From positions 1 through 59,054 of IMG/VR virus record IMGVR_UViG_3300047476_000223: a DNA stretch of 59,054 nucleotides. The stretch is one strand, 5' to 3'. The stretch is from a virus. How positions within the stretch are numbered: the stretch's first letter is position 1; the number at the start of each line of letters is the position of its first letter. The position numbers and the translations under genes were made by a program. The notes beneath the pieces were generated by a model that saw only the letters and a list, made by a program, of their open reading frames with translations, was not told the DNA's origin and ran no database searches. Positions 23,390 to 47,076 of this stretch are shown here, one piece after another.

Positions 23390-23417
23390 TTGATACTAAC
23401 AATGTTAGCCTTATTTT
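23390..23417 (+). promoter_or_regulatory. Possible early promoter with palindrome in its spacer
   Basis: TTGATA (23390-23395), 16-base spacer, TATTTT (23412-23417). The exact palindrome CTAACAATGTTAG fills most of the spacer, the classic place for a repressor site. The -10 match is weak, so the call is tentative. Confidence 0.4.
23396..23408. repeat. Palindrome CTAACAATGTTAG, exact, site 1
   Basis: Non-coding, in the spacer of a possible promoter before the first early gene. Confidence 0.85.
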
Positions 23418-23527: not shown

Positions 23528-24085
23528 ATGGAAAACGTCAAAAATGTTAGTACCGCCCCCGCCGCCGCTGCAGTTGTCGATATTCCGAAGGATGTCATTG
23601 TTGCACGTAACCGCGTGATCGAAGCAGAAACAAAATCGTACGGTGCGCGCATCGGTTACGCATCGGCGCTCAATAGCATGGCGGGCTCTGCGTGGTATCG
23701 CGACGGCGCGGACAAAGTGATCAGCATTGAAGCGGAGAAGGCTAATCTTTACGCTGGCTTGAAAAAGGCTAATCACTCAAACCCGTCGAAGGTATGGGGC
23801 GATATTAAAAAGTACGCGCTGATCGACGCACAAGAACGCGGCCTGTTCGGTGAGACTAAGCCCGTCGAAGGCGAAGACGGCGAAGGCGAATCCACCGGCG
23901 GCGCAAACGCAAATGCCCCGCGCCCGCTGCAGTTGCGCCTTGTCGAGGAGTTAACCGCGCTTTACAAAGTGTGTGACAAAGAGAAAGCTTTCCTTACTGA
24001 TCAGCAGAAAGCAGCATCGCTCTGCATCACTAAGGCGCTGGAATCGCTGGGCGTGAATCTCGGCCTGATCAAAACCGGCAAATAA
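23528..24085 (+). CDS. First early-region protein, unknown function
   Basis: A 185-residue protein starting MENVKNVSTAPAAAAVVDIP at ATG 23528, with AGGA eight bases upstream. The N-terminal two thirds look helical with GYASALNSMAGSAWYRDGAD in the middle; an acidic Gly/Glu/Asn linker (about 117-130) follows, then a second helical part (LQLRLVEELTALYKVCDKEK). No catalytic motif. It is transcribed alone, flanked by palindromes and a terminator, which suggests high, separately controlled expression. Could be a virion-unrelated early host-takeover or DNA-binding protein; not known. Confidence 0.6.
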   Translation: MENVKNVSTAPAAAAVVDIPKDVIVARNRVIEAETKSYGARIGYASALNSMAGSAWYRDGADKVISIEAEKANLYAGLKKANHSNPSKVWGDIKKYALIDAQERGLFGETKPVEGEDGEGESTGGANANAPRPLQLRLVEELTALYKVCDKEKAFLTDQQKAASLCITKALESLGVNLGLIKTGK

Positions 24086-24110: not shown

Positions 24111-24123
24111 CTAACAATGTTAG
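24111..24123. repeat. Palindrome CTAACAATGTTAG, exact, site 2
   Basis: Non-coding, directly after the hairpin. One more flanking base pair extends it to CCTAACAATGTTAGG. Confidence 0.85.
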
Positions 24124-24261: not shown

Positions 24262-24591
24262 TCACTGCCATTCATCGACTATGGTTTTCAGGTCTGCACC
24301 TTGTGATAGTTCTCGGGGTCGCTCGGTGGTCTGGTTGCGTTGCGCTTCGGCTTGGGCACGAATTGCACGTCGCTCTGCGTTCGTCCAGCCGTCAATTCCG
24401 ACTTTATCGTCGGGGTCTTCGACGGGTTTTGGCGGCGCGACAGCGGGGGGTTTGGCTTGATGCGCATCCACAAAAGCCTGCAAAGCTTGGCGAGAAATGG
24501 TCGAAACATTCGTGTGAAAAATTTGTGCTAAATTTTCGATCTGTTGGTAAAGGGTTTCGTTCATTTCAAAAGCGATTCGTTTTTTGCTCAT
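24262..24591 (-). CDS. Ribbon-helix-helix (Arc/MetJ/CopG-type) DNA-binding regulator
   Basis: A 109-residue protein beginning MSKKRIAFEMNETLYQQIEN. A basic beta strand (KRIAFEMN) is followed by two helices (TLYQQIENLAQIF; STISRQALQAFVDAH), which is the RHH fold that binds short palindromes as dimers of dimers. The C-terminal half is Pro-rich then charged (TNAERRAIRAQAEAQRNQTT). ATG 24591 is chosen over GTG 24600 because GGAG lies 8 bases before it. It is the only minus-strand gene in the early block, has its own promoter, and faces the early promoter at 25018. It is therefore the best candidate to bind the CTAACAWTGTTAG sites; direct evidence is absent. Confidence 0.75.
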   Translation of the reverse strand: MSKKRIAFEMNETLYQQIENLAQIFHTNVSTISRQALQAFVDAHQAKPPAVAPPKPVEDPDDKVGIDGWTNAERRAIRAQAEAQRNQTTERPRELSQGADLKTIVDEWQ

Positions 24592-24675: not shown

Positions 24676-24688
24676 CTAACTTTGTTAG
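24676..24688. repeat. Palindrome variant CTAACTTTGTTAG, site 3
   Basis: Same arms as the exact sites but centre TTT. It lies 20 bases upstream of the -35 box of the RHH gene. Confidence 0.65.
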
Positions 24689-25017: not shown

Positions 25018-25046
25018 TTGACTTGCCCACTATATTGTGTTATAAT
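25018..25046 (+). promoter_or_regulatory. Strong early promoter P1
   Basis: TTGACT (25018-25023), 17-base spacer, perfect TATAAT (25041-25046). From the spacer end on it matches the promoter at 27836 (TTGTGTTATAATTAA), and TTGACTTG is also shared. Serves the rightward small-gene operon. Confidence 0.88.
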
Positions 25047-25075: not shown

Positions 25076-25088
25076 CTAACAATGTTAG
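25076..25088. repeat. Palindrome CTAACAATGTTAG, exact, site 4
   Basis: In the leader of the operon, about 30 bases after the -10 box of promoter P1, just before the first gene. Confidence 0.85.
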
Positions 25089-25102: not shown

Positions 25103-25291
25103 ATGGCTAAACTTAAGACCTACCTGATGGAGCAGCAGGAACAGCACATGAACGACGAAGAAATCGAAACCTACCTTGAACTGCTGCACGAAGAATGGCT
25201 CGCTAAACACGAAGCTTACCGTTACGAAGATAACCCTAACCCAAACGACACAAACAAAGGGGCTAACAATGTTAGGTGCAGTGATGGCTAG
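25103..25291 (+). CDS. Small acidic early protein
   Basis: A 62-residue protein starting MAKLKTYLMEQQEQHMNDEE. ATG 25103 is favoured by GGAG seven bases upstream; an in-frame ATG at 25082 lies inside palindrome site 4 and has no ribosome site. Helical and acidic with a polar end. First gene after the strong promoter P1. Function unknown. Confidence 0.5.
   Translation: MAKLKTYLMEQQEQHMNDEEIETYLELLHEEWLAKHEAYRYEDNPNPNDTNKGANNVRCSDG
25263..25275. repeat. Palindrome CTAACAATGTTAG, exact, site 5
   Basis: Contains the start codon of the next gene (ATG 25269) between its arms. Confidence 0.85.
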
Positions 25292-25514
25292 GGTTGAGTG
25301 GGTTGTGGCAGAGGAGTGGTGTGACCTGATAGACCACGACAAAAAGTGGTGGCAGGTGACGTACCGCCAAGCTAGAACAAATTATGCCGTGTGGGAAGTG
25401 ATGTACCCCGGCACTCGGAACACAGAGTACATACCCATAAAAGACATGCCAGAACATCAACTGCGCGACCGACTGAGAATGGAATACCTACTACTGAGGG
25501 GTGCTGATGACTAA
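25269..25514 (+). CDS. Small early protein, paralog A (LRDRLRxEYLL family)
   Basis: An 81-residue protein, Trp-rich (ARVEWVVAEEWCDLIDHDKK, WWQVTYRQARTNYAVWEVMY), ending HQLRDRLRMEYLLLRG. AAAGGGG precedes ATG 25269, which lies inside palindrome site 5, so a bound protein or a folded leader could affect initiation. The neighbour at 25507 shares the layout and the final motif, showing tandem duplication. Function unknown. Confidence 0.55.
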   Translation: MLGAVMARVEWVVAEEWCDLIDHDKKWWQVTYRQARTNYAVWEVMYPGTRNTEYIPIKDMPEHQLRDRLRMEYLLLRGADD

Positions 25515-25758
25515 GGTCATATGGAAACGGTGCAAGCCTGACTCAGATGGCGTGGTGTGGTGCGACTTGCTTGACCCTGATGCTAATGCTAACGGCGCGT
25601 GCTGGGTCATTACGTACCGCGACTATTACGAAAGCTGGCACGTGATGTGGAACACCCTTATCTCAGACAGACCCGACCATCTAATCAGCAAAACCATACC
25701 AGAAAAGCAACTACGCGACCGACTGAGGCTTGAGTACTTATTAACGAGGGGAGGCTAA
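25507..25758 (+). CDS. Small early protein, paralog B (LRDRLRxEYLL family)
   Basis: An 83-residue protein from ATG 25507, six bases after GAGGGG. It shares with the preceding product a Trp-rich body (VWCDLLDP; CWVITYRDYYESWHVMWNTL) and the end KQLRDRLRLEYLLTRG. Compact alpha/beta layout is likely. Function unknown. Confidence 0.55.
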   Translation: MTKVIWKRCKPDSDGVVWCDLLDPDANANGACWVITYRDYYESWHVMWNTLISDRPDHLISKTIPEKQLRDRLRLEYLLTRGG

Positions 25759-25767
25759 CAATGTTAG
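25755..25767. repeat. Palindrome CTAACAATGTTAG, exact, site 6
   Basis: Spans the stop of paralog B and the start codon of the next gene (ATG 25761). Confidence 0.85.
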
Positions 25768-25958
25768 AGAAGGAGCGCATAGCAAAAACGAAACATTGGA
25801 TACAACACATCATCCTGAGTAAAAAACTAGGCGTAGACATACAGATACCCGACGAGGACTGGGACTGGATGGTGTGCAACTGGGGCAGCGAAAGTGGGAA
25901 CCGCAGCCTGTACGGGCAGCTATGGGACGAAGTAGAAAAGGAGATGCACAATGACTAA
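25761..25958 (+). CDS. Small early protein
   Basis: A 65-residue protein starting MLEKERIAKTKHWIQHIILS, with a Trp-rich centre (DEDWDWMVCNWGSE) and a charged helical end. GAGG precedes the start, which is embedded in palindrome site 6. No family recognised. Confidence 0.5.
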   Translation: MLEKERIAKTKHWIQHIILSKKLGVDIQIPDEDWDWMVCNWGSESGNRSLYGQLWDEVEKEMHND

Positions 25959-26163
25959 CGAAGATGCGCGGTATCTGTGCGTAGTATGCGGTGGCTACAT
26001 TGCCCACGAGCGGTACAAACTGGGCTATAAAACATGTACCCAGTGCGGGGAAGACGCAGCCAAGAAAGTCAGACACTGCATCGCTCCGATCAACAAAAGC
26101 AACTACATGTACATCAGCGACTTATCACAACTGAAACAACTCAACCCAAAGAGGACGACATGA
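25951..26163 (+). CDS. Small zinc-finger protein
   Basis: A 70-residue protein with CVVC and CTQC knuckles (about residues 10-13 and 30-33) that form a likely zinc ribbon, and a basic stretch after them. The YLCVVCGGYI start resembles the 41-residue product at 37957. Eight-base overlap with the gene before, ATGA overlap with the gene after. Nucleic-acid or protein binding is plausible. Confidence 0.55.
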   Translation: MTNEDARYLCVVCGGYIAHERYKLGYKTCTQCGEDAAKKVRHCIAPINKSNYMYISDLSQLKQLNPKRTT

Positions 26164-26546
26164 GCCTAAGACCACAACGCCATATACCGACAATCGAACC
26201 TGTCATTGAGTACACCCCGTCGATGTGCGAGTTAGATAGCCCCGAAGGTGGTCATGCGTTGGACTGGGAGTTAGCAGTTCAGGAAATAGCGAAGCTAACC
26301 GAAGCGATTGACCAGTTGTATCACCACAAAGCCAGTGCCCCCGACAAACTCAATGCGCTACTTGACGACGCTAATAACGCATGGTGCAGCTACAACCACG
26401 CCGAGCCGGAAGATTACGAGCGGTTTGAGGACGACAGGGACATACTGAAGGCCGAGGTGTACGACTGCATACGCAAAGCCTACATCGACGGTTATATGGT
26501 TGGATTCCAACTGCGAATATCAGGGCAACGGTACAGTGACGGCTGA
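26160..26546 (+). CDS. Early protein of unknown function
   Basis: A 128-residue acidic protein from ATG 26160 (MSLRPQRHIPTIEPVIEYTP), with GAGG upstream. The middle is helical (DWELAVQEIAKLTEAIDQLY), the end aromatic (RKAYIDGYMVGFQLRISGQR). No catalytic residues are evident. Confidence 0.55.
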   Translation: MSLRPQRHIPTIEPVIEYTPSMCELDSPEGGHALDWELAVQEIAKLTEAIDQLYHHKASAPDKLNALLDDANNAWCSYNHAEPEDYERFEDDRDILKAEVYDCIRKAYIDGYMVGFQLRISGQRYSDG

Positions 26547-26571
26547 TAAACAAAGGCAAACGAAAGGAGAC

Positions 26572-26584
26572 ATAACAATGTTAG
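26572..26584. repeat. Palindrome near match ATAACAATGTTAG, site 7
   Basis: One mismatch at the left outer base. Contains start codon ATG 26578. Confidence 0.7.
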
Positions 26585-26814
26585 ACCGGCGACCAAGAAC
26601 CAAGCCCACTGCAACCAAGGATGGGTACAAGATCAGACGCGAGGCGTACAGCGCGGCGGCGGCACATAGTCACGAGCTGCAATGCAGTCTGTTCGGCAAG
26701 ACGTACGAGCCAGTGCCAGAGATACGCAAGCGGCTAGACATGCACTTAACTACGCACACAGTAAACAAAATGAAACACGAGATAGATGAGATCAACAAGG
26801 AGGGGGGTGCATGA
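26578..26814 (+). CDS. Small basic early protein
   Basis: A 78-residue protein starting MLDRRPRTKPTATKDGYKIR; AAAGGAGA lies six bases upstream and the start is inside palindrome site 7. Basic N-terminus, helical C-terminus (HTVNKMKHEIDEINKEG). Could bind DNA; no family known. Confidence 0.5.
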   Translation: MLDRRPRTKPTATKDGYKIRREAYSAAAAHSHELQCSLFGKTYEPVPEIRKRLDMHLTTHTVNKMKHEIDEINKEGGA

Positions 26815-27047
26815 CTGACGAGGAGGAAGCCAGAGTGCGGGAGATCATAGACCGCGAGGTGCAAGCACTGGTGTTAAAGGTGAAGTTCGAGCACGATGGG
26901 TCTGATATATCGTTCGCTGGGGATATGCACTGGCACTACCCAAGAGCATACAGGCGCATCAGTGACGAGGTGCTGGCTAAGTACAACCTAACCCGGAAGC
27001 AGATGGACAAGCTGCTACAACGACAAAAGGAGCAAGAATGGACATAG
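26811..27047 (+). CDS. Small early protein
   Basis: A 78-residue protein. Helical N-terminus (EEEARVREIIDREVQALVLK), a short beta part with MHWHYPRAYRRI, and a basic C-terminal helix (KYNLTRKQMDKLLQRQKEQE). ATGA overlap with the gene before. Function unknown. Confidence 0.5.
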   Translation: MTDEEEARVREIIDREVQALVLKVKFEHDGSDISFAGDMHWHYPRAYRRISDEVLAKYNLTRKQMDKLLQRQKEQEWT

Positions 27048-27121
27048 ATGACGTGGTGACATGGGTGTGCTGGACATTGATAGCACTGCTACCCGTGGTG
27101 CTTTACTTGGGGGTGGTATGA
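27038..27121 (+). CDS. Tiny membrane peptide, 27 residues
   Basis: MDIDDVVTWVCWTLIALLPV then VLYLGVV. An acidic head and one hydrophobic helix. AAGGAGC precedes ATG 27038 by five bases, and the gene overlaps both neighbours, so translation is likely. Resembles single-span phage peptides that act on the host inner membrane. Confidence 0.55.
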   Translation: MDIDDVVTWVCWTLIALLPVVLYLGVV

Positions 27122-27366
27122 CGCACATGACCGAAGAAGAGTGGCGAGGGTGTATGAGTGTGGCTACGGCGAACACGCCGACTGTGTATAGGCAAGCATT
27201 GATAGCGTGGAGGGGTTGGAACCCTGAGTGGCTGCTAGACAAGGTGAACGCTGAAGGTGGCGACTCAAGCAAAGCCAAGTTCACCATCGACGAGGTGATG
27301 CGGGCCTTCATGGAGGCATACATACTAGGCGTAACCAAGAAGATAACAGGAGGAGACCATGAGTGA
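27118..27366 (+). CDS. Small early protein
   Basis: An 82-residue protein, start ATG 27118 (MTHMTEEEWRGCMSVATANT) in overlap with the previous stop. Aromatic centre (LIAWRGWNPEWLLDKV), helical end (TIDEVMRAFMEAYILGV). No recognised domain. Confidence 0.5.
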   Translation: MTHMTEEEWRGCMSVATANTPTVYRQALIAWRGWNPEWLLDKVNAEGGDSSKAKFTIDEVMRAFMEAYILGVTKKITGGDHE

Positions 27367-27583
27367 CATAACATTGTTAGGCGTATTAGCTGCGGGGCTG
27401 GGGGTGTATTGCTTGTACTTACAGCTACGCGTCAACACACTAAACGCTGCGGGGAAGTTCATGACCGGGCTGCTTATCAAAACGGTGCAGGGATACACCA
27501 ACAAGTCCGAGCTTGAGGCAGCAGAAGAAGTACGGCGCATGGCAAAAGAGCACGCCGCACACGAGGTAGCAAAACATTTCTAA
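27359..27583 (+). CDS. Small membrane-anchored protein
   Basis: A 74-residue protein with one N-terminal membrane helix (about residues 4-22, ITLLGVLAAGLGVYCLYLQL) and a charged cytoplasmic helix (ELEAAEEVRRMAKEHAAHEV). AGGAGG lies six bases upstream. The palindrome near match site 8 encodes the ITLLG part. Function unknown. Confidence 0.55.
   Translation: MSDITLLGVLAAGLGVYCLYLQLRVNTLNAAGKFMTGLLIKTVQGYTNKSELEAAEEVRRMAKEHAAHEVAKHF
27368..27380. repeat. Palindrome near match ATAACATTGTTAG, site 8
   Basis: Inside a coding region, four codons after the start; one outer mismatch. Confidence 0.7.
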
Positions 27584-27593
27584 GGAGAACGAC

Positions 27594-27809
27594 ATGGGTA
27601 CATACATCGAAGTAAGTCTGGACGAGTTTGATACGAGCGACATCGTGGAGTACTTGGAGAACCAAGGGTTTAAGGTCTTCGAGGAGGACACCACCGAACA
27701 AGATGCCGAGCTGGAGCGCATCTGGGCAGCAATGCGACTCAACCAGAACGAGCAAGCACTGGAACTAATGCGCACCTACGTGTGCGACAAGCTGGGGAAA
27801 ATACTGTGA
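27594..27809 (+). CDS. Conserved small phage protein
   Basis: A 71-residue acidic protein; the start MGTYIEVSLDEFDTSDIVEY with LENQGFKVFEED recurs in many phage early regions. C-terminal helix rich in Glu, Gln and Leu (LERIWAAMRLNQNEQALELM). Good ribosome site (AAGGAGAACGAC). Last gene before promoter P2. Function unknown. Confidence 0.55.
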   Translation: MGTYIEVSLDEFDTSDIVEYLENQGFKVFEEDTTEQDAELERIWAAMRLNQNEQALELMRTYVCDKLGKIL

Positions 27810-27835
27810 CATGCGCACGTGACCGTGTCACAACC

Positions 27836-27864
27836 TTGACTTGATTACTATTTTGTGTTATAAT
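27836..27864 (+). promoter_or_regulatory. Strong early promoter P2
   Basis: TTGACT (27836-27841), 17-base spacer, TATAAT (27859-27864). Nearly identical to P1. A 6-bp inverted repeat GTGACA/TGTCAC (27806-27831) lies just upstream. It drives the MoxR/VWA operon. Confidence 0.88.
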
Positions 27865-27915
27865 TAAGTATAAGTCGGGGAAGTAAACGCAGTAAGTGCA
27901 ACGCCGCAGTGAAGC

Positions 27916-27928
27916 CTAACATTGTTAG
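27916..27928. repeat. Palindrome CTAACATTGTTAG, exact, site 9
   Basis: In the non-coding leader about 50 bases after the -10 box of P2; extended to CCTAACATTGTTAGG. Confidence 0.85.
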
Positions 27929-27989
27929 GTGTATCAAAGCAACAGCAACACACGCAACATAATATAAATAACTTTTTAGGAGAATCACG

Positions 27990-29054
27990 ATGTCTGAAAT
28001 TACTTTCGGTAAGACCGTCTCGCTCGACCAAGCAGCGAACGTAATCCTGCACACCCCGATGAACCGCTATCTGCTCGAAGGTGAGCCCGGTATCGGTAAG
28101 TCAACACTTATTAAAGCAATCGCAGCCAAGCTGCCCACACATGAGGTGGCGTACATCGACGTGCCGAACATGGACTTGGGCGACATTGCCATGCCTGTCG
28201 TTGACCACGAGACCCGCACTACCAAGTACTACCCGAACTCCCGCTTCAAGCTGCAGACCGGCAAGCCAGCAATCATCATGCTTGATGAGTACACCAAAGG
28301 TGCGCAACCAGTTAAGAACATGCTACATCCACTGCTTGAGGTTACTAACCCACGGCTAGGCGACATGCCCATACACCCTGAGTCCATCATCTTTCTGACG
28401 GGCAATCTCAGCACTGACGGGGTGGGTGACCAGCTACCTGCACACAGCCGCAACCGCATCATCCCACTACAAGTACGCAAGCCAGACGCGGAAGAGTGGA
28501 TCAGCTGGGGTATCAACAACGGCATCGAGGCCGAGCTGTTGGCGTGGGCGCGTCAGTATCCGCATGCCTTCGCGTCATACACAGATGCAGGGCAAGCTGA
28601 GAATCCGTACATCTTCAACCCACGCAAGCAACAGAAAGGCTTTGTGTCTGGCCGCTCGCTGGAACGTGCATCTAACATTGTTAGGATTCGCAAGCTGTTG
28701 GATAGCGACACATTGATCGCAGCCATGAGCGGTGCAGTGGGTGAGTCAGCAGCACGTGACATCCAAGCGTACATCGACTTCTCTTCGCAGCTACCAACGT
28801 GGGAGCAGACGATAACTAACCCAATGACAGCGCCTGTGCCTACGTCTGCTGGTGCATGTGCAGTGGTGGTGTATGGCGCAATCGCTAAGGTGGATAAGCA
28901 AACCATCACACCATTTATGCAATACCTTGAGCGGTTCGACCCTGAGTGGCAAGCATGCTTCGCTATCAACATCGCCAAGTCGAGCAAGCAAAGCATTGCG
29001 TTCAGTTGCAAAGCATTCAGTGATTGGGTGAGTCGTAACGAGGATTTGTTGTGA
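27990..29054 (+). CDS. MoxR-type AAA+ ATPase
   Basis: A 354-residue AAA+ protein. Walker A GEPGIGKST (about 31-39), Walker B IIMLDEY (about 95-101), sensor-1 region FLTGN (about 132-136) and an Arg pair in PAHSRNR that may serve as the finger. MoxR ATPases work as chaperones or chelatases with a VWA-domain partner, and such a partner is encoded two genes downstream. The whole pair follows the strong promoter P2. Palindrome site 10 lies within the gene and encodes SNIVR. Role in the phage cycle is unknown; remodelling of a host complex is one possibility. Confidence 0.85.
   Translation: MSEITFGKTVSLDQAANVILHTPMNRYLLEGEPGIGKSTLIKAIAAKLPTHEVAYIDVPNMDLGDIAMPVVDHETRTTKYYPNSRFKLQTGKPAIIMLDEYTKGAQPVKNMLHPLLEVTNPRLGDMPIHPESIIFLTGNLSTDGVGDQLPAHSRNRIIPLQVRKPDAEEWISWGINNGIEAELLAWARQYPHAFASYTDAGQAENPYIFNPRKQQKGFVSGRSLERASNIVRIRKLLDSDTLIAAMSGAVGESAARDIQAYIDFSSQLPTWEQTITNPMTAPVPTSAGACAVVVYGAIAKVDKQTITPFMQYLERFDPEWQACFAINIAKSSKQSIAFSCKAFSDWVSRNEDLL
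28672..28684. repeat. Palindrome CTAACATTGTTAG, exact, site 10
   Basis: Inside the AAA+ ATPase gene; read as Ser-Asn-Ile-Val-Arg. Confidence 0.85.
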
Positions 29055-29062
29055 GGTGAGTG

Positions 29063-29272
29063 ATGCGGATTTATTTTGACCGAAGAAGACGTGCTTGGGT
29101 GGGCGCTAAAAATTTACAGCGGCTGCATGACACAGATCACTCGCTTGATTTTGACGACGCTACAAGGTTGTATCGGATATGCCGAGAAGATGGAAATACT
29201 ACACCAGTAACCGATTGGATTCCGTACCAAGAAATGATCCGATATGTGAAGTTAATCATAGGGGGAGACTAA
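29063..29272 (+). CDS. Small early protein
   Basis: A 69-residue protein from ATG 29063 (MRIYFDRRRRAWVGAKNLQR), preceded by GAGGTG. Basic N-terminus, then a compact alpha/beta part (WIPYQEMIRYVKLIIGG). The layout resembles the Trp-rich small proteins at 25269 and 29275. Function unknown. Confidence 0.5.
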   Translation: MRIYFDRRRRAWVGAKNLQRLHDTDHSLDFDDATRLYRICREDGNTTPVTDWIPYQEMIRYVKLIIGGD

Positions 29273-29281
29273 CAATGTTAG
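29269..29281. repeat. Palindrome CTAACAATGTTAG, exact, site 11
   Basis: Contains start codon ATG 29275; the left arm overlaps the stop of the previous gene. Confidence 0.85.
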
Positions 29282-29487
29282 ATGAGGATAAGCATGTGTA
29301 CTACTGGGCATGGGCTGAGTATGACAACCCTAATGTATACACAAACCCCAAACTGTACAGGGTGTTTCGATTGACCCCAAAAATGGGTACTAAAGACGAG
29401 CCAATCACCGAAGCAATGAGCAAGGTTGAGGCTATCGAGTACTGCAAACGCATTGTCAAGCTAACCGGAGGGAGAGAAATCAGATGA
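29275..29487 (+). CDS. Small early protein
   Basis: A 70-residue protein starting MLDEDKHVYYWAWAEYDNPN. Strong GGGGGAG ribosome site, start within palindrome site 11. Compact, aromatic, with a helical end (AMSKVEAIEYCKRIVKLTGG). It lies between the ATPase and its VWA partner. Unknown function. Confidence 0.5.
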   Translation: MLDEDKHVYYWAWAEYDNPNVYTNPKLYRVFRLTPKMGTKDEPITEAMSKVEAIEYCKRIVKLTGGREIR

Positions 29488-30665
29488 GCGAACCAAGAGA
29501 CAAGGAAGAGCGCAAGCTCAAGAAGGTCAAGATTGCATTGATGCGTAACCCACTCTTTGCGCTGTATCAAGGCGTGATGATGGTGGGTAAGACATCGCTG
29601 CGTGATGACATTCCGACTGCGTGTACCAACGGACGCGACGAGATATACGGACGCACATTCGTCAAGGAGCTAGACGAGAAGGAGCTTGCCTTCGTGGTAA
29701 TGCACGAGTGTATGCACAAGGTCTATCGTCACCTGACCACATGGAAGAAGCTGCACGAGGAGAACGCTCTGCTTACTAATGCAGCGTGTGACTACGTGAT
29801 CAACCTGAAGCTTAAAGACATCGACCCCGATGGTAAGTACATGCGCATGCCAATGAAGAACGGCAAGCCATTCGGTCTGATCGACGAGAAGTATCGGGGC
29901 ATGCACACCAAGCAAGTCTTCGACGCACTAAAGCAAGACGGTGCGGGTGGTGGGGGTGATGGCTTCGACGAGCACGACTGGGACGGTGCCGAGGAGATGA
30001 CTGACCAAGAGAAGGAAGAGCTTCACCGCGAGATCGACCGAGCTATCCGCCAAGGGCAGATTGCAGCTAAGAAAGCAGGTACAGGTGCGGGTGGGCTTGA
30101 CCGTGAACTGGGTGACTTGATGGAACCCAAGGTGGACTGGCGCGAGGTGCTGCGTGAGTTTGTGAAATCAATCTGTAATGCAAAGGATGCTTCATCATGG
30201 AGACGAGTAAACCGCCGGTTCATCGGCAGCGACATCTACTTGCCCACACTTATCGGGGAACGAGTAGGGCATATCGTAATAGGCATAGACACCAGTGGGT
30301 CTATCGGGGGCAAGGAGTTAAGCGACTTCCTATCTGAGGTGAAAGGGATTGCTGATGAGGTTCGACCGGAGCGCGTTGACTTGCTGTACTGGGATAGCGA
30401 GGTGGCAGGGCATGAAGAGTATGACGAGTACAGCGTGGCTAACATTGTTAGCAGTACGAAACCACGTGGAGGTGGTGGTACGAGCCCTTCATGTGTTACT
30501 GCTTATCTTAAGGATAAAGCTATCAAGCCCGAGTGCGTCATCATGCTCACGGACGGCTACGTCGGTGATGATTGGGGTGGAGACTGGCCGTGTCCTGTTC
30601 TCTGGACTATCGTGGCTGGCAATAGTGACGTTGCCCCAAGCGGCAAAACTATTCACATTAACTAA
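29484..30665 (+). CDS. VWA-like protein with N-terminal putative metallopeptidase domain (DUF2201-type)
   Basis: A 393-residue partner of the MoxR ATPase. The N-terminal domain has HECMHKVYRH (about 74-83), an HExxH zinc site as in the metallopeptidase-like half of DUF2201 proteins. A Gly/Asp/Glu-rich linker (about 150-200) follows. The C-terminal VWA domain has the MIDAS motif DTSGS (269-273), a Thr in GGGGTSPS and LTDGY, the third metal-site element. VWA domains of this group bind protein targets for MoxR. Palindrome site 12 lies in the gene as ANIVSS. Confidence 0.85.
   Translation: MSEPRDKEERKLKKVKIALMRNPLFALYQGVMMVGKTSLRDDIPTACTNGRDEIYGRTFVKELDEKELAFVVMHECMHKVYRHLTTWKKLHEENALLTNAACDYVINLKLKDIDPDGKYMRMPMKNGKPFGLIDEKYRGMHTKQVFDALKQDGAGGGGDGFDEHDWDGAEEMTDQEKEELHREIDRAIRQGQIAAKKAGTGAGGLDRELGDLMEPKVDWREVLREFVKSICNAKDASSWRRVNRRFIGSDIYLPTLIGERVGHIVIGIDTSGSIGGKELSDFLSEVKGIADEVRPERVDLLYWDSEVAGHEEYDEYSVANIVSSTKPRGGGGTSPSCVTAYLKDKAIKPECVIMLTDGYVGDDWGGDWPCPVLWTIVAGNSDVAPSGKTIHIN
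30439..30451. repeat. Palindrome CTAACATTGTTAG, exact, site 12
   Basis: Inside the VWA gene; extended to GCTAACATTGTTAGC, read as Ala-Asn-Ile-Val-Ser. Confidence 0.85.
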
Positions 30666-31341: not shown

Positions 31342-32202
31342 ATGGGTATCTCATCAAGCGCAGTATTGGTAGAGCTGAACGTATCCGTCTGGGGTGCAAG
31401 CAAGGTAGACCGCGATGCAACCGACGACGTGAACATCCGCAACAACGCAACACGTGACGCATCCAAGGTCTACAAGAACCTGACCGCAGGTACATCCCTG
31501 CGCAAAGACATCAGCGACTACGCTGCAAAGATTCGCCAGTTTCATAACCGACAGACTTTACCGTGGACGCATAAAGGTGCTCGACTGCTGCCTACTTCCC
31601 ACGTACTAGAGTACAAGCAACACATGAATGCAATGGAGCGCCAGTTCAATGCGCTGTTGCATAAGTTTTACGTCGAGTACCCTAACATTGTTAGCCAAGC
31701 GCAGACTAACTTGCGCGGCATGTTCAAGGCCGATGACTATCCAACCCTTGAGGAAGTGCAGGAGAAGTTCGGATACAAGCTGGTGTTCTCTCCCCTACCC
31801 GAAGCGGGGGACTTCCGTCTGGACGTAGCTAACGAAGAGCTGCGGGAACTATCACTCTCTTATGAAGCGGACTTCAACGAGCGTCTGGGTAAAGCTATGC
31901 GTGAGCCATGGGAACGACTGCATGAGACGTTGACTCACCTGAGCACTAAACTGACCGATGCGCAGGATGGTAGCGAGGAAGTTAAGCGCCGTTACCACGA
32001 CAGTCTTGTGACCAACGCGCAAGGGCTGTGTGAGCTGCTGACTAAACTAAATATTACGAACGACCCTAAGCTTGAGGAAGCACGCCGCAGTCTTGAGCTA
32101 ACAATGTTAGGTGTGGACATCGACTCCATCAAAGAGTCACCCGAGGTGCGACACAGCGTCAAGTCTAGGGTGGATGCAATCCTTGAGAAGTTTGACTGGT
32201 GA
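31342..32202 (+). CDS. Conserved phage early protein (MGISSSAVLVELN family)
   Basis: A 286-residue protein. Its opening MGISSSAVLVELNVSVWGAS, the segment LTAGTSLRKDISDYAAKIRQ, LPWTHKGARLLPTS and the late LVFSPLPEAGDFRL are strongly conserved in many phages. Mostly helical. The family has no known activity that I can name. AAGGAGC lies before ATG 31342. Palindrome sites 13 and 14 are within the gene, read as PNIVS and LTMLG. Confidence 0.65.
   Translation: MGISSSAVLVELNVSVWGASKVDRDATDDVNIRNNATRDASKVYKNLTAGTSLRKDISDYAAKIRQFHNRQTLPWTHKGARLLPTSHVLEYKQHMNAMERQFNALLHKFYVEYPNIVSQAQTNLRGMFKADDYPTLEEVQEKFGYKLVFSPLPEAGDFRLDVANEELRELSLSYEADFNERLGKAMREPWERLHETLTHLSTKLTDAQDGSEEVKRRYHDSLVTNAQGLCELLTKLNITNDPKLEEARRSLELTMLGVDIDSIKESPEVRHSVKSRVDAILEKFDW
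31682..31694. repeat. Palindrome CTAACATTGTTAG, exact, site 13
   Basis: Inside the 286-residue gene; read as Pro-Asn-Ile-Val-Ser. Confidence 0.85.
32098..32110. repeat. Palindrome CTAACAATGTTAG, exact, site 14
   Basis: Second site in the same gene, 416 bases on; read as Leu-Thr-Met-Leu-Gly. Confidence 0.85.
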
Positions 32203-32694: not shown

Positions 32695-33678
32695 ATGTTC
32701 GGACGATTTAAGGGTGGCGGTATACCCGCACTGAGTAGCTACGCAGAAGCAATGGCGCACTGGGAGAACGTCAAGCCTATACGTGGGCGCAGGGATGACG
32801 AGCGACCACTGGGTGATCGGCGTAAGAGCGAGATGCAGATTGCTCGTAACTTGGACACTGTTATATGCGTGCTGTACCACACGAACGTCATTACGTTTCA
32901 CCCGGACGACACAATAACAGTCAACGTACCGGAGGAGTGGCGCACACATACAACTGCGGAGTTTATCCATGCGGTGCTACGCAACTACACCAAGTACGTG
33001 GGTATCGCTGATGGTGATGTAGTGATGGCACTCAACGGGCCAACCCCCGGCTATTTCCGTATGGGTACGAAGACTAGGTTCAAGCTGCACCCCAACAGAC
33101 TGGAGTTACTCGGGGGTAACATTGTTAAGAACACCCACGCAGTTAACCGTAAGGCGATGAACGCAGCACGCAAGGAGATCGATGGCTTTCTGACTTACCT
33201 ACGCGGGGCGCATAAGCTGCGGGATGGGCTCTACTCTTCGGATGAGATGCAAATACTTTATGACTTTTTACTTAACCATAAGCAATTAGAAGCAAGCTTT
33301 CCGTTTGATTCGTTCATGTCTTCGAACTTTCATTGGTCGTTATCTTTACCTTTGACTAATAAATGGGCGGGGCGTGGGACTAGCATAATGACGTGGCACG
33401 ACAGGGCTAAGTTTGCAATGAAGTTAATGCGTGAGGGTTCACATGAGGACTGGTATGCGGTATCGTTGTGGTTAGTTGCGAGTTCTTACCTTGTGGCTCA
33501 CGGCAAAGATGTAAATGTCCACCTTGGGTCTTTGACTCAAGACATAACAGACATGCTACTGGTAACGACACCGGGCGCACTTGTCGCAACACCTGAGCCG
33601 TATGGGGTGATCAAGGTAGACAGCAACAGGCAGGTAGCCGAGGTTAGAAACTATATTGCAGAAGTGGAGGCGAGTTGA
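32695..33678 (+). CDS. Conserved phage early protein, unknown function
   Basis: A 327-residue protein from ATG 32695 (MFGRFKGGGIPALSSYAEAM, then WENVKPIRGRRDDERPLGDR), a start seen in other phages. The body mixes alpha and beta elements (AVLRNYTKYVGIADGDVVMA; NPTPGYF-like GPTPGYFRMG). No metal or nucleotide motif found. A palindrome near match (site 15) gives GNIVK. Confidence 0.6.
   Translation: MFGRFKGGGIPALSSYAEAMAHWENVKPIRGRRDDERPLGDRRKSEMQIARNLDTVICVLYHTNVITFHPDDTITVNVPEEWRTHTTAEFIHAVLRNYTKYVGIADGDVVMALNGPTPGYFRMGTKTRFKLHPNRLELLGGNIVKNTHAVNRKAMNAARKEIDGFLTYLRGAHKLRDGLYSSDEMQILYDFLLNHKQLEASFPFDSFMSSNFHWSLSLPLTNKWAGRGTSIMTWHDRAKFAMKLMREGSHEDWYAVSLWLVASSYLVAHGKDVNVHLGSLTQDITDMLLVTTPGALVATPEPYGVIKVDSNRQVAEVRNYIAEVEAS
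33116..33128. repeat. Palindrome near match GTAACATTGTTAA, site 15
   Basis: Core TAACATTGTTA intact; outer pair changed. Inside the 327-residue gene as Gly-Asn-Ile-Val-Lys. Confidence 0.55.
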
Positions 33679-34162: not shown

Positions 34163-35067
34163 CACGAGTATGTTTTGCTGATGTCGGGTTCCCGACTAAC
34201 ATTGTTATATCGAACAAGATAGACCAATGGCGCACCAAGGTATTTACGCTAGACGATGTGGTGTTTGGCAAAATGTCTTCGCAGGTAATACCAGTGGTGG
34301 CGAGGATGTTCCCGGCGTGGGAATTCATGGTGACCCACGTTCATACGGAAGGGTTTTACGAGAAGCGTTGGGTGTTTCCGACGAGAATAATAGTGTCTGA
34401 GAAAGGTGTCGAACGGGGCAAGATACAGATCGACAATCCATGGCGTTCATACGGCGAGAGCTTAGTCTTTTTAAACCCACGTATTCATAACGCCATGCAA
34501 CGGGGAAGGTATAAGATCACAACCAAACCCAAGGTAGCTATACAAATTGTGAAGCAATACTTCACTGACCCACCCATTACAGAAACTATAGCAGTGGTAA
34601 GCAAGCAGCTCAAGTCTACTGCGAATATGCAACGGACTACGTTCAAAGCATCGAGAGACTTAGAGTACCTACGGTTAACAGATTTAGTGCGGCCATACGT
34701 TGATGAACACTTAGTAGAGATTGCAAAGCAAGTGCACGAAGTAAACGCTAACTTCAATGTGCCAAAGTACTTGGAGCTTGTTGAGGACACAAAAATATCT
34801 GAGTCTGTTGCTGATGTCCCGGCCAATTCTGCATTGACAGTCATGATACGTAATGATAAATATGTGTTACATAGAAGTAATATGCCAGTCTTTGCGCTGA
34901 CCTCAGAGCACTTACCGGAACAGGTTCGTACGGCGATAGGGCTGCTCAAGCTGGTAGATGACGGCCAGTTTGTGCGGGATGTAGGGTACAGGCACAAGGC
35001 AGATCAATTTTTAGTTGTATACGCTGGGCCATTTAACGAGGAGCTAACATGCAAAACTTCAAGCTGA
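34159..35067 (+). CDS. Early protein of unknown function, 302 residues
   Basis: MTRVCFADVGFPTNIVISNK opens a mixed alpha/beta protein. The first third is beta-rich and aromatic (FPAWEFMVTHVHTEGFYEKR), the middle helical (VRPYVDEHLVEIAKQVHEVN), the end beta again. No catalytic motif stands out. A palindrome near match (site 16) lies at the very start of the gene (TNIVI). Confidence 0.5.
   Translation: MTRVCFADVGFPTNIVISNKIDQWRTKVFTLDDVVFGKMSSQVIPVVARMFPAWEFMVTHVHTEGFYEKRWVFPTRIIVSEKGVERGKIQIDNPWRSYGESLVFLNPRIHNAMQRGRYKITTKPKVAIQIVKQYFTDPPITETIAVVSKQLKSTANMQRTTFKASRDLEYLRLTDLVRPYVDEHLVEIAKQVHEVNANFNVPKYLELVEDTKISESVADVPANSALTVMIRNDKYVLHRSNMPVFALTSEHLPEQVRTAIGLLKLVDDGQFVRDVGYRHKADQFLVVYAGPFNEELTCKTSS
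34196..34208. repeat. Palindrome near match CTAACATTGTTAT, site 16
   Basis: One outer mismatch; 37 bases after the start of the 302-residue gene. Confidence 0.65.
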
Positions 35068-38082: not shown

Positions 38083-38420
38083 AACCCGTAGCGTGGATAA
38101 AGATACGAGAACTTACATATATGCAAGCCGTTAAAGCGTATGGCAAAGACGATTGGCAGACGAACCTTGGTTTGAAGCCTGAGCCTGATGACGAAGGTTT
38201 GTACACCGAGACTCAAGTGCAAGAACTGAAGAGAAGTTTTGAGCAGTCTGTCACTGACCCCGAGAATCAACCGAGCCAGTACGGAACAGTGCCAATGAAG
38301 GAATGGCAAGGGCTGACGGATGAGGAGATTACTGCTTTGAAGCGCAACGGCGAGAGATACATCAGTTCGCAAGACTTTGCCCGCGCCATCGAAGCCAAGC
38401 TGAAGGAGAAGAACACGTGA
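38079..38420 (+). CDS. Conserved phage early protein (EWQGLTDEEI family)
   Basis: A 113-residue protein. N-terminus KPVAWIKIRELTYMQAVKAY; a coiled middle (TETQVQELKRSFEQSV); then KEWQGLTDEEITALKRNGER and the end FARAIEAKLKEKNT. The last block is shared with the 64-residue protein at 33968 and with many phage proteins. Function unknown. Confidence 0.55.
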   Translation: MKPVAWIKIRELTYMQAVKAYGKDDWQTNLGLKPEPDDEGLYTETQVQELKRSFEQSVTDPENQPSQYGTVPMKEWQGLTDEEITALKRNGERYISSQDFARAIEAKLKEKNT

Positions 38421-38626
38421 ACGAACAGAAAGTAAGACGGGGGCGTGGGCCCGGCAAAAAGCCACGACACGGCATCACGAGCGTGCGCCTACCAGTGTAC
38501 GTTCTTGATTATTACCGCCGGAACTTTGACAACAGCACAGCTAAGATGCGCGAGGTTCTGGTTAACTATGCAGAAGAAAATGGAGCTAACAATGGTAAAG
38601 AAAGTAAAGAAGGTATTGAGCCCTGA
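38417..38626 (+). CDS. Basic ribbon-helix-helix-like protein
   Basis: A 69-residue protein starting at GTG 38417. Basic arm (RRGRGPGKKPRHG) followed by SVRLPVYVLDYYRRNF and STAKMREVLVNYAEENG, a beta strand and two helices as in RHH proteins. It is a second possible DNA-binding partner for palindromic sites. Fold assignment is tentative. Confidence 0.5.
   Translation: MNEQKVRRGRGPGKKPRHGITSVRLPVYVLDYYRRNFDNSTAKMREVLVNYAEENGANNGKESKEGIEP
38586..38598. repeat. Degenerate palindrome CTAACAATGGTAA, site 18
   Basis: Left half exact, right half with two changes. Contains start codon ATG 38592, as at five other genes. Confidence 0.5.
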
Positions 38627-39059: not shown

Positions 39060-39356
39060 ATGGCTGGTACGCCTGAGAGTAAGGTTAAGTTAGCTGTCGT
39101 TAAATTGCTTAAGCAATACGGCGTTTATTTCTTTTTCCCCGCAACTCACGGGTACGGACGCTCAGGCGTGCCAGACATCGTATGCTGTATCAACGGTAGG
39201 TTTTTAGCTATTGAATGTAAAGCTGGAAAGAACGAGCCCACTGCACTGCAACAACGAGAAATAAACCAGATACAAGCAGCGGGTGGTATGGCAATGGTGG
39301 TCAGAGAAGACCTAACATTGTTAGAATTTTTATTGAAGGAGCTAACGTATGAGTGA
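39060..39356 (+). CDS. VRR-NUC domain nuclease
   Basis: A 98-residue PD-(D/E)XK nuclease. The catalytic order is visible: an early Glu/Lys helix (TPESKVKLAVVKLLKQYGVY), GRSGVPDIV with D38, then AIECKAG with E52 and K54, and QQREINQIQAAGG. VRR-NUC proteins cut branched DNA such as Holliday junctions. Placement just before DNA polymerase suits recombination or debranching before packaging. Palindrome site 19 lies near its end (DLTLLEF). Confidence 0.82.
   Translation: MAGTPESKVKLAVVKLLKQYGVYFFFPATHGYGRSGVPDIVCCINGRFLAIECKAGKNEPTALQQREINQIQAAGGMAMVVREDLTLLEFLLKELTYE
39312..39324. repeat. Palindrome CTAACATTGTTAG, exact, site 19
   Basis: Inside the VRR-NUC gene near its 3' end; read as Leu-Thr-Leu-Leu. 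Confidence 0.85.
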
Positions 39357-39849
39357 AATGCAAGCAGAATTACGGGTAGAACTAAGCGAAGGCGTTGCGC
39401 TGTTGCTGCAGCGTATGGAGTCGCACCCAGAAGAGTTTAACTCGGAGCGTGGTAAGTGGAGTCATGTGCTGAGTGTAGTAGAGGAGCGGATGTTTAACCC
39501 GCAGAACAAACGCAGGGCTGAGCCGTGGATGACTGACGAAGAAATCCGTGCCGTATGGGGTGGCTACCAAAAGATCAAGCAAAAAAGCTTTCACGACTTT
39601 GTGATGAAGAAGCTGCTGGACGATGGTGAGGGAGAAATAATGACACCTGAGCTGCGGGCGTTTACAACAAAGCACCCACCTGTCTTAAACCCGAACTACC
39701 CCATGCAACCCGGCGGAGTATATCCTTCGTGGGAAACCGCGACATCTCAAACTTCAACCACATCTTTAGTCACTAGTACCTTTGGGTCAGTAGAGCCTGA
39801 ACCATCGCCGTCGTTCATCGAAAAAGTTAAAAAGGCACTTGGCCAATGA
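39349..39849 (+). CDS. Conserved phage protein next to DNA polymerase
   Basis: A 166-residue protein. The N-terminal part (LSEGVALLLQRMESHPEEFN, then WSHVLSVVEERMF) and the segment WMTDEEIRAVWGGYQKI are frequent in phages with a similar replication block. The C-terminal half is Pro/Ser/Thr-rich and probably disordered. No catalytic motif. Possibly a polymerase accessory; unknown. Confidence 0.5.
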   Translation: MSEMQAELRVELSEGVALLLQRMESHPEEFNSERGKWSHVLSVVEERMFNPQNKRRAEPWMTDEEIRAVWGGYQKIKQKSFHDFVMKKLLDDGEGEIMTPELRAFTTKHPPVLNPNYPMQPGGVYPSWETATSQTSTTSLVTSTFGSVEPEPSPSFIEKVKKALGQ

Positions 39850-43564: not shown

Positions 43565-43776
43565 CGATTGATGGGCCCCCCTATGACGACATGACGGTGG
43601 AAGAAGCCAAGATGATCTGGCTAACAATGTTAGGTTCTGATTGGGTAGACGAAGACATACTGCTAAACGAGCCGTACGGCTCTATGCTTGACGTTGCGGG
43701 CATGGTTTTAGAGCAGGAAGGTTTATTGGAATACGACTCTTACAAATACAAAATAAAACTCAGATGCAAATCGTAG
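43561..43776 (+). CDS. Small acidic protein
   Basis: A 71-residue protein from GTG 43561, overlapping the previous stop. MTIDGPPYDDMTVEEAKMIW with LTMLG encoded by palindrome site 20. Acidic and helical. Function unknown. Confidence 0.45.
   Translation: MTIDGPPYDDMTVEEAKMIWLTMLGSDWVDEDILLNEPYGSMLDVAGMVLEQEGLLEYDSYKYKIKLRCKS
43621..43633. repeat. Palindrome CTAACAATGTTAG, exact, site 20
   Basis: Most rightward exact copy; inside a small gene as Leu-Thr-Met-Leu-Gly, 140 bases before the helicase start. Confidence 0.85.
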
Positions 43777-45323
43777 ATAACAAAGTCATCGTCATACGTA
43801 CGAGACGCCCGCACTTGATAACGGAGACGATCAAAAAGAGCAAGGTCATCGGTAGACTGCCGGATGATCTGCATGATGTCGCCGTGCATTACGGGTTACC
43901 TGAAACCCAAGCACTAGCTAAGCTGAACATAAAGAATGTGCCGTCACCCATAATCCGAGACTACGACTGGCCGGGCCAGTTCAAACCATTCGAGCACCAA
44001 AAGCAAACCGCAGCGTTCCTCACCCTGCGCAAACGTGCGTTCTGTTTTAACGAACAGGGTACAGGCAAGACGGCTGCTGTTATCTGGGCGGCGGACTATC
44101 TGATGAAGCTGGGTCTGGTGCGCCGTGTGCTTATCATTTGCCCGTTGTCTATTATGAAATCGGCATGGCAGAACGACCTGTTCCGGTTTGCTGTGCACCG
44201 TAGCTGCGACATTGCGTATGGCAAGCGCGACCAGCGTAAGTCAGTAATCAACGGCGAGGCAGAGTTTGTCATTATTAATTTTGACGGGCTGGATATTGTT
44301 AAGGACGAAGTTATGAACGGCGGGTTTGACCTGATCGTCGTAGACGAAGCCTCGGCATATAAGAACATGCAGACTGCACGCTGGAAAACATTGAAGTCAG
44401 TGCTCACTCCGGATACTTGGCTGTGGATGCTGACCGGCACTCCGGCGGCACAATCCCCTGTGGACGCTTACGGCATAGCAAAGCTGGTCAATCCCGATGG
44501 GGTGCCCAAGTTCTTTGGTCAGTTCCGCGACAAGGTGATGGAAAAGGTAGGCCAGTTCCGTTGGATACCAAGGCCCAACGCGGAAGTCACCGTGCATAAC
44601 GCATTACAACCGGCAATAAGGTTTGAAAAAGCGCAATGTCTGGACCTGCCGGAGGTAACCTATACAGAACGGGATGCCCCGCTGAGCCCTCAGCAGAGGT
44701 TGTACTACAAGATTCTGAAGGAGCAAATGCTGATCAACGCCGGGGGTGAGGAAGTTACGTCTGTCAACGCAGCGGTAAACCTGAACAAGCTTCTGCAAAT
44801 CTCGGGCGGTGCGGTCTACTCTGACACTAAGGAGATCATTGAGTTTGATGTGTCCAACCGGCTGAAGGTAGTGCAAGAAGTTATCGAGGAATCAAGCAAC
44901 AAGGTGCTGGTGTTTGTGCCGTTCACACATACTATTGAGCTACTGATGAGCCACCTTACAGCTGTTGGTATTACGTGCGACATCATAAGCGGGCAGGTTA
45001 CGGTCAACAAACGCAACGATGTAATACAAAGGTTTCAAAATAGTAAAGAGCCAAGAGTGTTAATTATTCAACCACAGGCAGCGTCCCATGGGTTGACATT
45101 GACGGCAGCAGATACGATTATTTGGTACGCGCCCGTAACGAGTGTAGAAACTTACCTACAGGCAAATGCACGGATCAATCGCCCCGGACAGAAGAACGCG
45201 ATGACTATTGTGCATATCAAAGGCAGCGAGGTGGAGGCAAGGCTTTATCGCATGCTGCGCAACAACATAGCTAACCACACAAAAATAATCGATTTATACA
45301 AACAAGAGCTTAAAGACGCTTGA
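43764..45323 (+). CDS. SNF2-like DEAD/DEAH helicase
   Basis: A 519-residue superfamily 2 ATPase. Walker A EQGTGKT (about 97-103), motif Ia ICPLSIMKSAWQ, motif II VVDEAS (DEAS form, about 192-197), motif III LTGTP (about 222-226), and C-terminal motifs V/VI ASHGLTLTAADTIIW and QANARINRPGQ (about 466-476). The DEAS and NRxGQ forms are typical of phage SNF2-type helicases used in DNA repair, recombination or replication restart. Preceded by nucleases, consistent with end processing. Confidence 0.9.
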   Translation: MQIVDNKVIVIRTRRPHLITETIKKSKVIGRLPDDLHDVAVHYGLPETQALAKLNIKNVPSPIIRDYDWPGQFKPFEHQKQTAAFLTLRKRAFCFNEQGTGKTAAVIWAADYLMKLGLVRRVLIICPLSIMKSAWQNDLFRFAVHRSCDIAYGKRDQRKSVINGEAEFVIINFDGLDIVKDEVMNGGFDLIVVDEASAYKNMQTARWKTLKSVLTPDTWLWMLTGTPAAQSPVDAYGIAKLVNPDGVPKFFGQFRDKVMEKVGQFRWIPRPNAEVTVHNALQPAIRFEKAQCLDLPEVTYTERDAPLSPQQRLYYKILKEQMLINAGGEEVTSVNAAVNLNKLLQISGGAVYSDTKEIIEFDVSNRLKVVQEVIEESSNKVLVFVPFTHTIELLMSHLTAVGITCDIISGQVTVNKRNDVIQRFQNSKEPRVLIIQPQAASHGLTLTAADTIIWYAPVTSVETYLQANARINRPGQKNAMTIVHIKGSEVEARLYRMLRNNIANHTKIIDLYKQELKDA

Positions 45324-45347
45324 CAATGTCAAAAGTTAGTGTATAGT
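45320..45347 (+). promoter_or_regulatory. Promoter of the SSB-like operon with overlapping palindrome
   Basis: TTGACA (45320-45325), 16-base spacer, TATAGT (45342-45347). The -35 box is half of a perfect palindrome TTGACAATGTCAA (45320-45332), which has the same centre and shape as the dispersed CTAACAATGTTAG. A 180-base leader without a gene follows up to 45527. Confidence 0.65.
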
Positions 45348-45929: not shown

Positions 45930-46846
45930 GCAATGAAGTTTCCATTTTTAAGTCTGGTGATGTAGCACTCTCAGCAAAGAAAACCCCATCGGCACTGACC
46001 CAGTCGCTGATGAAAAAGAAAGCCCTGAAGCGTATCGTTGCTAAGAACGGTATTCTGCGCCGACTGGCTAACGGTGAGGAAGTAGGTAAGTTGAAAGCAC
46101 CTTTGCGTGTGGTCATCGTCAACGCATCTACGGACATCTCCCGCACTTTCTACGCTAAGACCTATGACCCAAACGCAGAAGCTGCGCCGCCTGACTGCTG
46201 GTCACCAGATGGCCGCAAGCCGGATGCAAGTGTGAAGCAGCCACAAGGTAAAACCTGCGAGACCTGCCCTAAGAATATTGCGGGTTCAGGTCAGGGCAAT
46301 ACCAAGGCATGTCGTTACGGTCGTCGCATCGCTGTAGTCCTGCCAGATGATCTGGATACTAACGTGGCTGGTGATGTATATCAGATGCAGTTGTCGGCTA
46401 AGTCTATCTTCGGTAAGGGTAGCGGCCATACTTTCCCGTTCAACGCGTACATCGACTACATCTTTGCCAACGGCAGTGACCTTGAGTCTGTGGTTACAGA
46501 GATTAGCTTTAACGAAGACAACGACAACCAGACGGTGCTGTTTAAGGCTGTGGACTTCGTTGCTAAAGACCCGCAGCTGGAAGCTATTGTTGCCGAGGCA
46601 GCAGTGTCGGAGACTGCACAAAAAGCTGTCGTTATGTCTGTGTATCAAACTGATACGGAAGGTAAGACAAGTAATGAGGAGTTTGAGCAATCGCCTGTAC
46701 CAAAAGCCGAGAAAGCCAAGGCAGAAGCAGTCGAAGCGGAAGAGGTGGCAGAACCTACGAAGCGTGCTTCTAAACCAAAGGCCGAGGTTTCGGATACGCC
46801 TAAGAAATCTCTTGCGGATGTGGTCAGTGACTGGAGCGACGACTAA
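45926..46846 (+). CDS. Single-stranded DNA-binding-like protein
   Basis: A 306-residue protein. Centre with CETCPKN...GQGNTKACRYGRR (about 111-135), cysteines for a zinc site, flanked by beta-rich parts (APLRVVIVNASTDISRTFYA; FGKGSGHTFPFNAYIDYIFA). The C-terminal quarter is Lys/Glu/Ala-rich and ends in the acidic DVVSDWSDD, like the tails of SSB and T7 gp2.5 that recruit replication partners. Function is inferred from this tail, from the zinc core shared with phage ssDNA-binding proteins, and from the neighbours. Confidence 0.6.
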   Translation: MSNEVSIFKSGDVALSAKKTPSALTQSLMKKKALKRIVAKNGILRRLANGEEVGKLKAPLRVVIVNASTDISRTFYAKTYDPNAEAAPPDCWSPDGRKPDASVKQPQGKTCETCPKNIAGSGQGNTKACRYGRRIAVVLPDDLDTNVAGDVYQMQLSAKSIFGKGSGHTFPFNAYIDYIFANGSDLESVVTEISFNEDNDNQTVLFKAVDFVAKDPQLEAIVAEAAVSETAQKAVVMSVYQTDTEGKTSNEEFEQSPVPKAEKAKAEAVEAEEVAEPTKRASKPKAEVSDTPKKSLADVVSDWSDD

Positions 46847-47076
46847 TGAGCTACGGATATAGCCAACGACTTGTTGACCTGAACAAACGGGCTGACAAGA
46901 AGCTGCTTGGCGTTATCTTGGGCAAGGCATGTATCGAAGCTGAGTCTCCGGTACGTGCTGTTGCTGACCAACTGGGGGTGAGCCGTGCTACGGTTTACAA
47001 CTGGTTCACTGGTCTTTGCGACCCGCATCCAAAACACCACGCAGCAATCAACAAACTGCTTAAGCGTTTGAAGTAA
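46846..47076 (+). CDS. Helix-turn-helix protein
   Basis: A 76-residue protein whose first base is the last base of the previous stop (TAATG). Helical start (QRLVDLNKRADKKLLGVILG) and HTH SPVRAVADQLGVSRATVYNW (about 34-53), basic end. Possibly a Cro/XRE-like regulator of middle to late switch. Its own stop is followed by a terminator. Confidence 0.65.
   Translation: MSYGYSQRLVDLNKRADKKLLGVILGKACIEAESPVRAVADQLGVSRATVYNWFTGLCDPHPKHHAAINKLLKRLK

Follow-up and report, generated by a model that had tools for sequence, protein, structure and literature searches.

A palindrome array in the early region

The window analyzed here is the whole 59,054-base viral record IMGVR_UViG_3300047476_000223 from IMG/VR, with structural genes on the minus strand to approximately 23.1 kb and, from 23.4 kb onward, plus-strand genes for early functions and replication. 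We identified 13 exact copies of a 13-letter palindrome, CTAACAWTGTTAG, in which the arms CTAACA and TGTTAG flank one central letter (A in the copies over start codons), against a mean of 0.00 copies in 100 dinucleotide shuffles. All exact copies lay within 23,396-43,633, with 0 in the rest of the window, and together with the near copies they were confined to 23.4-43.6 kb. We put at about even the chance that this array is a two-armed DNA operator of a small phage ribbon-helix-helix (RHH) protein, forming a self-limiting roadblock on the early genes, a binder and a block of transcription that we infer from the comparisons below.

The array opens with exact intergenic copies at the head of the early region (23396..23408, CTAACAATGTTAG) and 3' of gene 23528-24085 (24111..24123). 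A predicted early sigma70-type promoter (25018..25046, plus strand, TTGACT-17-TATAAT) and a second early promoter with the same boxes and spacing (27836..27864, plus strand) are each followed by an exact intergenic copy, at approximately +29 (25076..25088) and +51 (27916..27928) from the respective predicted start. The pattern TTGAC(T/A)-17-TATAAT, with TGTG before the -10 box (an extended -10), was common to both promoters and to those of many relatives. The copy at 25076 holds an ATG (25082) without a Shine-Dalgarno (SD) sequence, whereas the ATG at 25103 has one, so the gene more likely starts at 25103.

Exact intragenic copies were identified in the ATPase gene (28672..28684, encoding the peptide ASNIVR at a position common to most relatives) and at 30439..30451, 31682..31694, 32098..32110, 39312..39324, and 43621..43633, the last exact copy. 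Copies with 1 mismatch begin at 24676 (24676..24688, CTAACTTTGTTAG, upstream of the minus-strand RHH-like gene 24262-24591), 26572 (over a start codon, described below), 27368 (27368..27380, inside gene 27359-27583), and 34196 (34196..34208, intragenic), and a degenerate intragenic copy with 2 mismatches lies at 33116..33128.

Conservation and placement of sites in related phages

An ATPase search of IMG/VR returned 80 loci, two more ATPase scans added further loci, and removal of overlaps left 107 non-redundant loci, the genes of which were called by a simple script. With a relaxed pattern, at least 3 sites were identified in 92 of the 107 loci and 0 sites in 10. In the related viral contigs, the palindrome was again restricted to the early region, with about 10-25 copies per phage in most well-covered relatives. 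Arms and flank varied in concert within the family, as CTAACA, ATAACA, GTAACA, or CTGACA; the inter-arm spacer was 1, 2, or 3 bp, with 1 and 2 mixed in some genomes, and the centre was A/T in 987 of 1022 spacer-1 sites. No copy was found in the fetched stretches of the distant named phages Rhizobium RHph_TM, KPP25, and Rollin (L085-L087), and the palindrome sequence was not found printed in the literature searched.

In 11 of 13 large records, nearly all sites fell in a stretch that began at the contig end or approximately 5 kb upstream of the ATPase gene and ended within approximately 1.5 kb of the gene for the RHH protein, with 0 to 2 sites per record beyond that array end; the contigs of the other two, G002 and G003, begin within the array and do not allow so simple a scoring of the layout. 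Gaps between sites had a median of 566 bp and a coefficient of variation of 0.57 versus 0.87 for random placement, so that spacing was more even than chance. With a relaxed site pattern, which also picks up TTGACA palindromes at -35, a site was identified at +20 to +60 of the predicted start in 46% of 140 promoter-like sequences within arrays, compared with 5.5% under random placement, and at -10 to +20 in none of the 140.

Sites in the ATPase gene were conserved comparably to those at start codons, with an offset of approximately 680 in most loci and a further site at offset 283 in 35 of 77, the latter with an internal in-frame ATG and the reading MLDE. The ATPase peptide ASN(I/V)V was encoded by palindromic DNA in 6 of 6 motif-bearing versus 0 of 8 motif-less matched sequences, the search pattern having missed most loci. 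These peptides are natural controls, in that the residues are the same whether or not the palindrome is there, and their palindromic encoding only in motif-bearing phages, along with the conserved intragenic sites, argues for selection on the DNA.

A candidate binding protein and a proposed roadblock

The window encodes a candidate regulator of 69 amino acids (38417..38626, plus strand) with a basic arm, RRGRGPGKKP, and a BrnA-like predicted fold that resembles RHH. Family members are 55 to 120 amino acids long, with RGRGxGKKP as the basic arm and an RHH-like core. The Pfam model of the BrnA RHH antitoxin repressors (PF14384) matched 15 of 32 family members (best 1.5e-7), with no hit for the window's own member, and the predicted fold is strand-helix-helix-like: the AlphaFold model places two helices after a strand-like stretch, at a predicted local distance difference test score of 74. 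BrnA normally controls its own operon. The RHH protein with its arm was present in 72 motif-bearing loci, and in the motif-less clade the RHH protein either lacked the arm or was not detected, the labels "motif-less" and "no RHH" depending partly on incomplete contigs and the arm state of L069 being assigned by eye.

In the mechanism that we propose, the operator would take the form (C)TAACA-W(1-3)-TGTTA(G), which recurs across the early region in a probably lytic phage family, and the most likely ligand of this operator would be the small RHH protein 38417-38626 with its basic, AT-hook-like arm. Recognition of the TAACA arms would fall to the ribbon, and the basic arm might occupy the A/T-rich centre. 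The gene is located close to the distal end of the array, so the protein would accumulate once early transcription reaches that gene and would then occupy sites downstream of the early promoters and along the operon, halting RNA polymerase and switching the early genes off. The initial annotation had suggested that a protein on the site might act at both transcription and translation; the transcriptional part finds indirect support in the family-wide palindrome, the promoter sites at +20 to +60, and the array end near a gene of DNA-binding type, whereas the translational part was not borne out, as described below. More tentatively, and at somewhat less than an even chance, lytic phages, which have no lysogeny to maintain, may run a roadblock on a genome scale, with a tiny arm-plus-RHH protein on evenly spaced palindromes shutting its own early operon from sites in conserved coding sequence and at stop/start junctions.

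Several observations weigh against the RHH protein as the binder, a role that we infer from co-occurrence and location. A few sites lie past the RHH gene, the best Foldseek match of the RHH candidate in PDB was not significant (E 9.8), and RHH was not detected in 20 motif-bearing loci, mostly contigs that end early. The motif-less phages form one well-supported clade, so that loss of the arm with loss of the motif counts as a single event. Further, L148 and L151 encode nearly the same RHH protein but carry CTGACA and CTAACA sites, respectively, and L196 and L198, again with nearly the same RHH protein, have spacers of 2 and 3; RHH thus does not obviously set the motif, which argues against a simple code, co-variation of the two having been judged by eye. 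The conservation of a second candidate, an XRE/Cro-like protein identified in 12 of 13 large records, also counts against it.

The minus-strand gene 24262-24591 encodes a second, divergently transcribed RHH-like protein with homologues in L005 and L006 (weak RHH_1 scores). A conserved minus-strand regulator upstream was also considered and rejected, the search giving only antisense noise.

Alternative binders and functions

The XRE/Cro-like helix-turn-helix (HTH) protein of 76 amino acids (46846..47076, plus strand) is encoded just before the primase gene and has a near-invariant recognition helix, VSR.TVYNWF. We consider it unlikely, though worth weighing, that this protein rather than RHH binds the array with an otherwise similar function. 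Besides its presence across the large records, palindromes could plausibly be read by an HTH dimer, and the promoter that precedes the XRE operon has a related palindrome, TTGACAWTGTCAA, overlapping its -35 box. In the window, this second palindrome type is TTGACAATGTCAA at 45320..45332, over the -35 box of a promoter with TATAGT and a 16-bp spacer. Most records had one to two copies of TTGACAWTGTCAA or the looser TTGACAAAGTCMAA over -35 boxes per genome, and the -35 palindrome with a 16-bp promoter spacer was also identified in G001, G002, G003, G004, G005, G008, G010, and G012. However, XRE persists in the motif-less L167, L172, and L174, its recognition helix unchanged in the core (VSRTT.YNWF); two of these, L172 and L174, have the -35 palindrome as well but neither the CTAACA array nor RHH. 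The array end lies close to the gene for RHH and not to that for XRE. TTGACAWTGTCAA was absent from the fetched parts of L164 and L165, where no XRE was detected, and in L167 XRE was present with no -35 palindrome nearby. This distribution suggests that XRE serves the -35 palindrome, to which it is more likely tied, and that RHH serves the array.

It is quite improbable that a host DNA-binding protein recognizes the sites, with the phage exploiting or countering it. The phage binder is itself only a candidate, and no relative was found in genome_contigs to point to a host; however, arms and spacer vary in concert within a genome among related phages, the sites are limited to the early region, and a phage gene of DNA-binding type lies at the array end. 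We likewise give little credence to a nucleoid-like or centromere-like role in organizing or segregating the phage genome in place of a role in transcription. The even spacing of the sites would fit such a role, as would the weak PDB sequence and fold matches of the RHH candidate, which include plasmid ParR and a SegB, but the sites are strongly tied to promoter positions +20 to +60 and to early genes only, and no ParB domain was found in 10 records.

Start codons and gene junctions

The initial annotation had placed four start codons of the window (25269, 25761, 26578, and 29275) inside the palindrome, and both coordinates and sequence proved right. The copies are exact at 25263..25275, 25755..25767, and 29269..29281, and the copy at 26572..26584 (ATAACAATGTTAG) has one arm mismatch. 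The annotation had confined itself to copies at start codons, besides which the window carries the intergenic and intragenic copies given above. The partial versions that it had described were also found, as a left-arm-only remnant, CTAACAATGGTAA, at start codon 38592 (38586..38598) and as the right arm only, CGGAGAATGTTAG, at start 41666, where the same letters form the stop of the DNA polymerase open reading frame (ORF) 39846-41672. An SD-like GGGG/GGAG lies directly upstream of the left arm at all four full start-codon copies, and at 25761 and 29275 the left arm is also the TAA stop of the gene upstream.

Across the motif-bearing loci, the full palindrome lay over the ATG of 128 of 2,347 ATG genes and the left arm alone over that of 6, compared with 0 of 234 ATG genes in motif-less loci. 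Relative to random placement of 833 sites within arrays, start-overlapping sites were enriched approximately 6-fold (100, or about 12%, versus 17 expected), sites at gene edges without start overlap were enriched 5.5-fold (58 versus 11), intergenic sites numbered 205 versus 78, and intragenic sites 470 versus 728. Since edges without a start were also enriched, start overlap appears to reflect a preference for gene junctions. The letters of the palindrome supply a TAA stop, a 6-nucleotide SD spacer, and an ATG, so that the site fits such junctions; 30 of 104 start sites also gave the TAA of the upstream gene, and 95 of 104 had an SD of at least 4 letters just upstream of the left arm.

Of the two commonest families, one has the start palindrome in 43 of 54 members and the other in 22 of 38, so that orthologues do begin without it, among them the window's own members of those families, 29484 and 25951; the initial annotation had itself named such orthologues as evidence against its reading. 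Non-start intragenic sites showed no strand preference in the central letter on the sense strand (A in 287, T in 255), which argues against a strand-specific RNA element, and the hairpin of the isolated 13-mer RNA was weak, at -1.1 kcal/mol; on these two grounds, an RNA hairpin at the start codon was rejected. That the site also blocks initiation of translation, as the initial annotation had suggested, whether through a protein or through a hairpin on the mRNA, is therefore very improbable despite the enrichment of start overlap and its retention in the larger family, because the majority of sites lie away from starts and those in the ATPase gene are comparably conserved. Translational control is not supported, and from the sequence comparisons we read the use of start codons as a probable by-product of selection on the DNA; gene junctions can accommodate an operator with no control of translation being implied.

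As for the gene orthologous to 29484, which has the palindrome at its start in 43 of 54 relatives, the window carries the palindrome instead at the start of a small gene (29275-29487) just upstream.

Comparison with known repressor-site arrays

The nearest system in layout is that of the stoperators of cluster A mycobacteriophages (L5, TipsytheTRex), in which a 13-bp repressor site, proposed to halt both initiation and elongation, occurs over 20 times at promoters and in short intergenic spaces (PMC9283540). Both have many dispersed copies of one short site. Cluster A stoperators lack symmetry, point in the direction of transcription, and are recognized by the monomeric repressor of temperate phages, which combines an HTH and a stoperator domain (PMC9283540), whereas the sites described here are palindromic, without strand preference, and often inside ORFs. 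The DNA-binding candidates found here are the 69-residue RHH and 76-residue XRE proteins, no dedicated stoperator-domain model having been searched, and unlike in cluster A phages, no integrase (PF00589) was found in 10 records; a temperate repressor system was rejected on this ground and for want of a relative in genome_contigs. We conclude that the array probably works like stoperators and is not a member of that system.

Phage phiC31, also temperate, has many copies of an inverted-repeat repressor site, the conserved inverted repeats, across its early region; sequence, repressor family, and host differ here. The KorB operators of plasmid RK2 are 13-bp palindromes with a 1-bp centre in about a dozen dispersed copies, and KorB belongs to the ParB family. 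The window's palindrome resembles them in length, dispersal, and centre, but a ParB/KorB-like binder was rejected, as no protein with a ParB_N domain was found in 10 records. In SPbeta, the conserved 15-bp element SPBRE, repeated in intergenic and promoter regions, was noticed in silico before being linked to a repressor, MrpR, which has a tyrosine-recombinase fold and sites at prophage promoters (PMC10516654). The palindrome described here is likewise a repeated phage element noticed from sequence.

Repressor-site arrays that halt elongation are most familiar from temperate actinobacteriophages. If the proposed roadblock is correct, an evenly spaced, co-evolving array in a large, apparently lytic uncultured family would carry this principle over to the switch from early to late genes, and with a candidate protein that is far smaller; further, the arm and spacer variants over approximately 100 contigs make the recognition code testable. 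In the L172 contig (L224, L240, L241), a relative without the CTAACA array, six copies of another element, TGTAGCTACA, were identified.

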